This document shows positions 5,858-36,529 of a stretch of DNA of 36,529 nucleotides, piece after piece (the first letter of the stretch is position 1; each line of letters begins with the position of its first letter). The notes under the pieces were generated by a model. The model was given only the letters and a program-made list of their open reading frames with translations, made no database searches and was not told the DNA's origin. A program made the position numbers and the translations under genes. Where the stretch lies: NCBI GenBank assembly GCA_027036015.1, contig JALVTH010000036.1:1-36529 (forward strand). Direction: 5' to 3'. The DNA comes from Campylobacteraceae bacterium (GTDB lineage: Bacteria > Campylobacterota > Campylobacteria > Campylobacterales > Sulfurovaceae).

Positions 5858-5881
5858 TTTTTAACCTTTTCTTTTTTTTAG

Positions 5882-5887
5882 ATTGTA
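5882..5887 (-). promoter_or_regulatory. candidate -10 box for tolB-cpoB
   Basis: On the minus strand the sequence reads TTGCTACAATC: a TACAAT box with a TG just upstream, about 25 nt before the tolB start. A second AT-rich box (TATAAT) lies further upstream. It is the only intergenic space longer than a few bases within the Tol cluster. Confidence 0.4.
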
Positions 5888-7020: not shown

Positions 7021-7583
7021 TATTTTTCCCTGCTAAGAAGCAAATTTGCTATTGAATTTAAAATTGAATTTAATTCATACACCTTCCGTTTCAATAAAAG
7101 ATGAAACATATAAGCAAAAATTGCTACAAAAATTCCAAAAGCCGTTGCCACTAACGCTTCAGAAATTGCGGGAGCTACTACATTAAGTGTTGCACTTTTT
7201 ACATTTCCAAGTCTGCCAAATGCTTCTAAAATACCAACTACAGTTCCAAATAGTCCAATAAATGGAGCAGTTGATGCCATAATGGCAAGTTGCGTTAAAC
7301 CTTTGGTAGATGCTCTTAGAGTATCATTAATAGCCGCATCTAAAAGCTTTTGTCTATTTACATCTTTTAATCGGTGTAAAAAATTATAAAAAACTGACGT
7401 AATTGCAATATCTTCATTTGGATTGTTATAGAGACGATTAAGGGTGTCATGCTCAATTTTTATTCGATAATTAATAAGTCTATATCTATATAAAAAGATG
7501 TAAAAAGTTGCAATAAAATAAAATGATAAAGCAGCAATAACAATATATGTTATTGCGCTTGCATGGGCTAAATAATCTCCCAT
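7020..7583 (-). CDS. tolQ: MotA/TolQ/ExbB proton channel protein, 187 aa
   Basis: This is the multi-span inner-membrane channel partner of TolR. The first membrane segment is at about residues 10-32. After a cytoplasmic loop come two more segments, one at about 100-125 with the family motif STAPFIGLFGTVVGILEAF and one at about 142-165 (ISEALVATAFGIFVAIFAYMF). The length is on the short side for TolQ but normal for this phylum. It starts 8 nt after atpC, so it is probably read from the same transcript as the ATP synthase genes. Confidence 0.9.
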   Translation of the reverse strand: MGDYLAHASAITYIVIAALSFYFIATFYIFLYRYRLINYRIKIEHDTLNRLYNNPNEDIAITSVFYNFLHRLKDVNRQKLLDAAINDTLRASTKGLTQLAIMASTAPFIGLFGTVVGILEAFGRLGNVKSATLNVVAPAISEALVATAFGIFVAIFAYMFHLLLKRKVYELNSILNSIANLLLSREK

Positions 7584-7989: not shown

Positions 7990-9396
<1,407 letters not shown>

Positions 9397-35596: not shown

Positions 35597-35608
35597 TTTT
35601 TATTTAAA

Positions 35609-35628
35609 TTATGTCACTTTTGACATAA
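35609..35628. promoter_or_regulatory. palindromic candidate operator in the CRISPR leader
   Basis: TTATGTCA (35609-35616), spacer CTTT, and TGACATAA (35621-35628) form a perfect 8-bp inverted repeat with a 4-nt spacer. Half sites of this size and spacing are typical of CRP/FNR-family regulators. Its centre lies about 39 bp before the TATAAA box. It could instead help to end the ribF transcript, but no T run follows. Confidence 0.45.
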
Positions 35629-35654
35629 TAGTAAATCGGATAAAATTAATCCTG

Positions 35655-35660
35655 TATAAA
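35655..35660 (+). promoter_or_regulatory. candidate -10 box of the CRISPR leader
   Basis: CCTGTATAAAGC holds TATAAA with TG immediately before it. It lies 249 bp before the first repeat, so a transcript from here would carry a long leader. A second candidate, TATGCTAATATT near 35851, lies closer to the array. Confidence 0.3.
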
Positions 35661-35908
35661 GCTTCAAAAATCGTTATACAAAAATTACCTCTTGTTCTTT
35701 GCAAATGCCCTATTTTTGGGAATTTTTATTTTTTCGTTTAAGATAAATTTAAGATTAAAAAGAGACTTTGCAAAAAATCAAATGCCCATAAAATGGTACT
35801 TATGTATTTTTTATGTCTTTTAACTCGCTTTATCTATATTTAAGATAAAATATGCTAATATTTTATCAAATACCCAATTTTAGGGCTCTTTCACAATTTA
35901 TTGTTGCC

Positions 35909-36529
35909 GTTTCAACCAGACCCGATTTTAAGGGGATTGAGACGACCGCATCCTCTAACTCTTTTGTACGCTCTTAGAGTCGTTTCAACCAGACCCGATT
36001 TTAAGGGGATTGAGACTATGCCTTTACCTGAAGGCTGAGCCGCCTTCTCATCTGTTTCAACCAGACCCGATTTTAAGGGGATTGAGACGGAGGGAGCTTT
36101 TAACTCCGCTTTATTGGGAATTTTGTTTCAACCAGACCCGATTTTAAGGGGATTGAGACGAAAATTCCCAAACTTCTTTAAGAGTTACATAGTTTCAACC
36201 AGACCCGATTTTAAGGGGATTGAGACTTAGCGGAGCTAATAAACTCCGCCAAATAAGCGCGGAGGGTTTCAACCAGACCCGATTTTAAGGGGATTGAGAC
36301 TGGCGTTAGCGGAGCTAATAAACTCCGCCAAATAAGGTTTCAACCAGACCCGATTTTAAGGGGATTGAGACAGCATCTGGAATACCAAGCTTTTTAATCG
36401 CTTTTCGTTTCAACCAGACCCGATTTTAAGGGGATTGAGACCATCTTGACCCGCTGGAATATACAAAGCGCTCTTATTGTTTCAACCAGACCCGATTTTA
36501 AGGGGATTGAGACTCAAGAGGAGCAGCAT
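35909..36529 (+). CRISPR. CRISPR array, nine 35-bp repeats, continues past the right edge
   Basis: Nine repeats, all identical, start at 35909, 35982, 36054, 36125, 36192, 36266, 36337, 36407 and 36479. Each begins GTTTCAACCAGACCC and ends AAGGGGATTGAGAC. The ends are complementary with one G-U pair, so the repeat RNA can form a hairpin. Eight full spacers measure 38, 37, 36, 32, 39, 36, 35 and 37 nt; a ninth is cut at 36529. The handle ATTGAGAC and the variable spacer length suggest a type III or type I-B system, but no cas gene is in the window. Spacers 5 and 6 overlap in sequence, and spacers 3 and 4 carry an inverted repeat around repeat 4. Confidence 0.98.

Follow-up and report, generated by a model that had tools for sequence, protein, structure and literature searches.

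Two neighbouring spacers with a shifted 31-nt overlap in a CRISPR array of a Campylobacteraceae bacterium: probable double capture at one hairpin-bearing site

Background

How do two neighbouring CRISPR spacers come to hold the same 31 nt, each with a flank that the other lacks? The question is raised by spacers 5 and 6 (here A5 and A6) of CRISPR array A, which lies in the window of 36,529 nt analysed here; this window is the entire contig C36 of a draft genome of 1.69 Mb in 79 contigs. Overlapping spacers are rare in natural loci, according to Erdmann and Garrett 2012 (PMC3468723). An earlier note on this DNA had held that two separate acquisitions must have taken almost the same protospacer, and had listed an acquisition hotspot, imprecise trimming and capture of overlapping RNA or DNA pieces from a structured source as possible reasons.

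Results

The overlapping spacers A5 and A6

Array A has nine exact repeats (GTTTCAACCAGACCCGATTTTAAGGGGATTGAGAC) and complete spacers of 32–39 nt, with spacer 9 cut by the contig end at 36529. The features of the array are as follows.

35909..36513, + strand: CRISPR array A, nine identical 35-nt repeats and 8 complete spacers, running beyond the contig end
36227..36265, + strand: spacer A5, 39 nt, by leader order the newer of the two
36301..36336, + strand: spacer A6, 36 nt, by leader order the older of the two
36227..36257, + strand: A5 copy of the shared 31 nt
36306..36336, + strand: A6 copy of the shared 31 nt, same letters on the same strand
36230..36249, + strand: hairpin GCGGAG-CTAATAAA-CTCCGC in A5, 6-bp stem
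36309..36328, + strand: the same GCGGAG/CTCCGC hairpin in A6, 6-bp stem
36089..36124, + strand: spacer A3, whose GGAGCTTTTAACTCCGC is similar to the A5/A6 hairpin GGAGCTAATAAACTCCGC

A6 is 5 nt longer on the leader side and A5 is 8 nt longer on the opposite side, giving a union of 44 nt (TGGCGTTAGCGGAGCTAATAAACTCCGCCAAATAAGCGCGGAGG). The positions, strand, identity and extensions given in the earlier note were reproduced letter for letter, and its statement that the pair is not a plain copy holds, as each spacer has a flank absent from the other. The computed chance expectation for a 31-nt identity among the spacers of array A is ~1e-14.

A further recurrence was observed for TTGGGAATTTT, which is found at the end of A3 (36111-36124), inverted at the start of A4 (36160-36173) and also in the leader (35713-35726); its presence in three places is rare enough to notice and possibly of chance origin. 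The genes preceding array A are ligA, tlyA, ribF and other housekeeping genes, no cas genes were found in the examined parts of the window, and an IS1634-family transposase gene is located at the left contig end (133-1746).

cas genes, sister array and leaders

Two CRISPR-Cas systems were identified elsewhere in the genome. Contig C4 carries a type III-D operon (cas6-cas10d-cas7-cas5-cas7-csx19-cas7) without cas1/cas2, identified by PADLOC (Cas10d 1e-129, Cas7_IIId 7e-166 and 6e-129, Cas5_IIId 2e-126, Csx19 3e-34) and in agreement with NCBIfam, and contig C42 carries a type I-B set (cas3, cas4, cas1 and cas2), whose array has 17 complete spacers and a 30-nt repeat distinct from that of array A. 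A PF01867 search detected one Cas1 (Cas1b) in the whole genome, the one on C42 near cas3, cas4 and cas2. The earlier note had suggested looking for a reverse transcriptase (RT) fusion at cas1; this Cas1 has no RT domain, and the profile search of the draft assembly with PF00078 gave no match. The nearest named relatives of this Cas1 are from Sulfurovum and other Campylobacterales metagenome genomes. A Fic/Doc-type gene lies between cas4 and cas1 of the I-B locus (L030 3496-4458).

Array A is not adjacent to the III-D operon. Since the other repeat family adjoins the I-B genes, array A most likely belongs, by exclusion, to the type III-D effector; the last bases of its repeat, ATTGAGAC, resemble a type III 5′ tag. 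As the only Cas1 detected belongs to the I-B set, the enzyme that filled array A is most likely the I-B Cas1-Cas2.

Sixteen further copies of the array A repeat are found on contig C8 (L028), forming array B. The leaders of these two type III arrays and a motif at the leader end were located as follows.

35597..35908, + strand: array A leader, matching that of the same-repeat array on C8 at 296 of 312 bases
35884..35905, + strand: motif GGCTCTTTCACAATTTATTGTT at the leader end; a motif from the type I-B leader on C42 (L030) agrees with it at 21 of 22 positions

As the leaders are 95% identical over 312 bases at two sites of the genome (window 35597-35908 and L028 1108-1420), the leader has been duplicated, and each array acquired its spacers independently. 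The motif common to the type III and I-B leaders (GGCTCTTTnACAATTTATTGTT; L030 ~5861-5882), for which the best of 60 shuffles reached 19/22, lies 25 nt upstream of the type III repeat versus 115 nt upstream of the I-B repeat, and a relative has a similar motif (L083 ~7260-7281) ~114 nt ahead of its own I-B array.

Within array B, spacers B14 and B15 are exact adjacent copies (L028:55-90 and 126-161), an ordinary spacer-repeat duplication unlike A5/A6. By direct reading, B1 (L028 1038-1072) and B5 (754-786) are antisense to an apparent ribosome-binding site followed by a start codon.

Overlap geometry in comparison arrays

For comparison, we used 70 arrays (~1,740 spacers) located beside Cas1b genes related to that of the genome; judged as a group by their repeats and surrounding genes, most of them are type I-B. 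Partial spacer overlap is uncommon but real in them: 22 other overlapping, non-identical, same-strand pairs were found, with a shift of 0 in 14 pairs, of 2 to 4 nt in 3 and of at least 14 nt in 5. Long overlaps with a small shift begin at the same base in 14 of 17 cases, as PAM-anchored uptake predicts, and A5/A6 is off that rule, its leader-side ends differing by 5 nt rather than being shared as in PAM-anchored (type I) pairs. A small non-zero shift is combined with a long overlap in 3 of the 22 pairs, none of which is error-free. The same asymmetry was described in Sulfolobus, where the PAM end is homogeneous and the other end heterogeneous (Erdmann and Garrett 2012, PMC3468723).

In a genome of the same family (G015:C220, L162 7283-9508), a III-D operon that includes Cas2 and a fused RT-Cas1 adjoins a 34-spacer array; the one overlapping pair in this array likewise has a shift, of 11. 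In our genome, the type III arrays spread more widely in spacer length than do I-B arrays in Campylobacterota relatives (sd 1.84 vs 1.06, Levene P 0.003).

A hairpin within the shared stretch

The shared 31 nt contain the GCGGAG/CTCCGC hairpin in both spacers. For the reverse strand of the union, the folding energy is -18.4 kcal/mol (z -3.8). The flank private to A6 (TGGCG) is able to base-pair with the core segment CGCCA; GCGGAG is repeated in the flank private to A5. The hairpin pattern was found nowhere else in the genome nor in 11 other genomes of the genus. A host repeat element carrying it was considered and rejected, as none was found in these genomes outside A5 and A6.

Hairpins are over-represented in the two type III arrays of the genome. 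Of the 21 independent type III spacers, 6 have stems of at least 6 bp, versus 21 of 363 I-B spacers (Fisher P 0.0018), in a test that rests on these 21 type III spacers and was conceived after the A5/A6 hairpin was seen; the excess persists when A5, which prompted the test, is left out (P 0.0075). The I-B spacers comprise those of the genome's own I-B array (2/17 with stems) and of Campylobacterota relatives of similar base composition (19/346). Folding energies point in the same direction more weakly (P 0.03). In type III arrays of three relatives, stems were found in 6 of 48 spacers (P 0.08), all six from the RT-Cas1 relative. The type III spacers B1, B10 and B11 have ordinary gene targets without a hairpin.

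Search for targets

The earlier note had proposed searching both spacers against databases, and none of the collections searched yielded a protospacer for A5/A6: at up to 3 mismatches it was absent from the genome itself and from 397 phylum genomes, from 175 family genomes searched by BLAST with few candidate stretches scored per genome, from IMG/VR (exact 27-mer, exact 18-mer and three degenerate reading-frame patterns) and from GTDB genomes (exact 20-mer), and phage and plasmid collections gave matches at chance level only. Self-targeting by the shared core was also considered and rejected, the own genome having no further match at ≤3 mismatches. Degenerate patterns of A2 and A8 found nothing, no relatives of the B10 target protein were found in IMG/VR, and counting of open frames on the two strands gave no strand bias.

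Matches were obtained for B10 and B11 and, more weakly, for C1, the newest spacer of the I-B array, which otherwise gave weak protospacer matches only. All three match one phage-like contig from a genome of the same genus.

L041 (G009:C193) 2553-2587, 2661-2694 and 8412-8447: matches of B10, B11 and C1, the first two in one gene and the third weak

B10 and B11 match 108 nt apart and are both antisense to the gene; the flanks before B10, B11 and C1 are CAAA, GTTA and TCTC, with 3, 7 and 12 mismatches in the matches, respectively. As these spacers match one contig, the I-B and III-D systems seem to encounter invaders of one kind. From the orientation of their matches, the mapped type III guides seem to face the mRNA, as their function requires.

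Discussion

It is probable that A5 and A6 are two successive, independent captures from one invader site by PAM-independent type III uptake with imprecise ends. The review PMC9048733 describes type III adaptation as PAM-independent, hairpin-preferring uptake of DNA, with lengths centred on 36 and no RT required. A hairpin formed in single-stranded invader DNA, during replication or transcription, may offer a preferred double-stranded substrate, from which Cas1-Cas2 would capture a fragment centred on the hairpin; the ends of this fragment would be trimmed loosely to about 36 nt, and the hotspot would be sampled twice in succession, giving A5 and A6. The acting enzyme would be the I-B Cas1-Cas2, working on type III arrays. 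As the protospacer was not found in the searched collections, we infer the contiguity of the 44-nt union, the PAM, the type of nucleic acid and the source.

The hotspot and the imprecise trimming proposed in the earlier note are both supported by the unanchored ends, the wider type III spacer lengths, the hairpin at the site and the hairpin excess in the two arrays. Its two separate acquisitions are the best reading as well, although its "must" is too strong, since no protospacer was found and a duplicated 44-nt ancestor trimmed from opposite sides is formally possible. It was right to list a structured source. Capture of RNA by an RT-Cas1 has no support in this genome.

Against the reading of two captures by PAM-independent uptake, it should be considered that uptake by I-B Cas1-Cas2-Cas4 would predict a PAM-anchored end. 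Two kinds of array that differ in their habits seem to be supplied by the single Cas1 detected. Perhaps, although we regard this as doubtful, one I-B Cas1-Cas2 works in two ways: for the I-B array its uptake is PAM-anchored and of narrow length, and for the III-D arrays it is PAM-free, loosely trimmed and directed to hairpins, the difference being set by partners (e.g. Cas4) or by the leader and not by Cas1.

The hairpin may instead be irrelevant, with A5 and A6 being two random, independent captures from one abundant invader whose short genome was sampled often without a PAM; this is a rather unlikely alternative, although one to be taken seriously. Repeated sampling of one invader does occur, as B10 and B11 come from one gene of the phage-like element 108 nt apart, and overlaps with a large shift and no hairpin are present in the comparison arrays (spacers 10 and 14 of L047, spacers 56 and 57 of L091). 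However, a shift of 5 nt with 31 nt in common is far closer than in these large-shift cases, the shared part of A5/A6 bears the hairpin and the two arrays are hairpin-enriched.

It is improbable that A5 and A6 derive from different homologous or repeated hairpin elements, such as terminators or intergenic palindromes, of one or two invaders with the same 31-nt core. Such an origin would be consistent with the similar hairpin in A3 and with spacers 16 and 33 of L047 and 6 and 41 of L065, which overlap with internal indels or differing flanks, as homologous virus sites would. On the other hand, the 31 nt of A5/A6 are without a single change, and the TGGCG/CGCCA pairing together with the GCGGAG repeat in the A5 flank is consistent with a single, uninterrupted structured stretch.

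That overlapping RNA fragments of an abundant structured transcript were captured in the manner of RT-Cas1 is very improbable: the RT-Cas1 fusion beside the III-D operon of G015 and the antisense orientation of the mapped type III spacers B10 and B11 would be in line with it, but no RT was found in this genome, its only detected Cas1 lacks an RT domain, and selection for function is expected to yield antisense spacers as well (PMC5576922). Hardly credible, too, is a duplicated 44-nt ancestral spacer that lost 5 nt in one copy and 8 nt in the other, or an assembly artefact, since, despite the known exact duplication (B14 and B15) and the break of array A at a contig end, 44 nt is outside the observed 32–39 nt range, both deletions would need to end exactly at the repeat border, and two private flanks cannot be invented by an assembler.

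Read as two captures at one hairpin site, A5/A6 would be a natural record that type III uptake can strike one hairpin twice with neither end held constant, in a III-D setting and in a phylum where, to our knowledge, uptake is unstudied. With two array types and one detected Cas1 in the same genome, the control of PAM dependence and hairpin preference becomes testable.

Comparison with known systems

As in the hyperactive uptake of Sulfolobus (PMC3468723), near-identical overlapping spacers from one element show variable trimming; however, in Sulfolobus the PAM end is constant and the leader-distal end varies, whereas both ends vary in A5/A6, which stand side by side in a natural array. In Thermus (PMC6452258), partially overlapping spacers were likewise necessarily acquired independently from the same locus, but those cases are among the shared spacers of sequenced genomes, in arrays of different types, and are not neighbours in one array. 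The RT-Cas1 type III system of Marinomonas (PMC5576922) resembles ours in its type, in not needing a PAM and in uptake in either orientation, although it has an RT-Cas1 and none was detected in this genome.

The type III systems of Streptococcus thermophilus and Staphylococcus epidermidis (Zhang 2021 and Aviram 2022, via the review PMC9048733) are similar in their PAM-independent ends, lengths around 36 and an RT that is not needed, and the preference for hairpin-forming DNA that the review reports for S. thermophilus is matched by A5/A6. Those two are III-A systems with direct acquisition data, whereas here the system is III-D without an adjacent cas1 and is read from array anatomy alone. A5/A6 is best seen as a clean natural example of the already known PAM-free, hairpin-leaning type III uptake.
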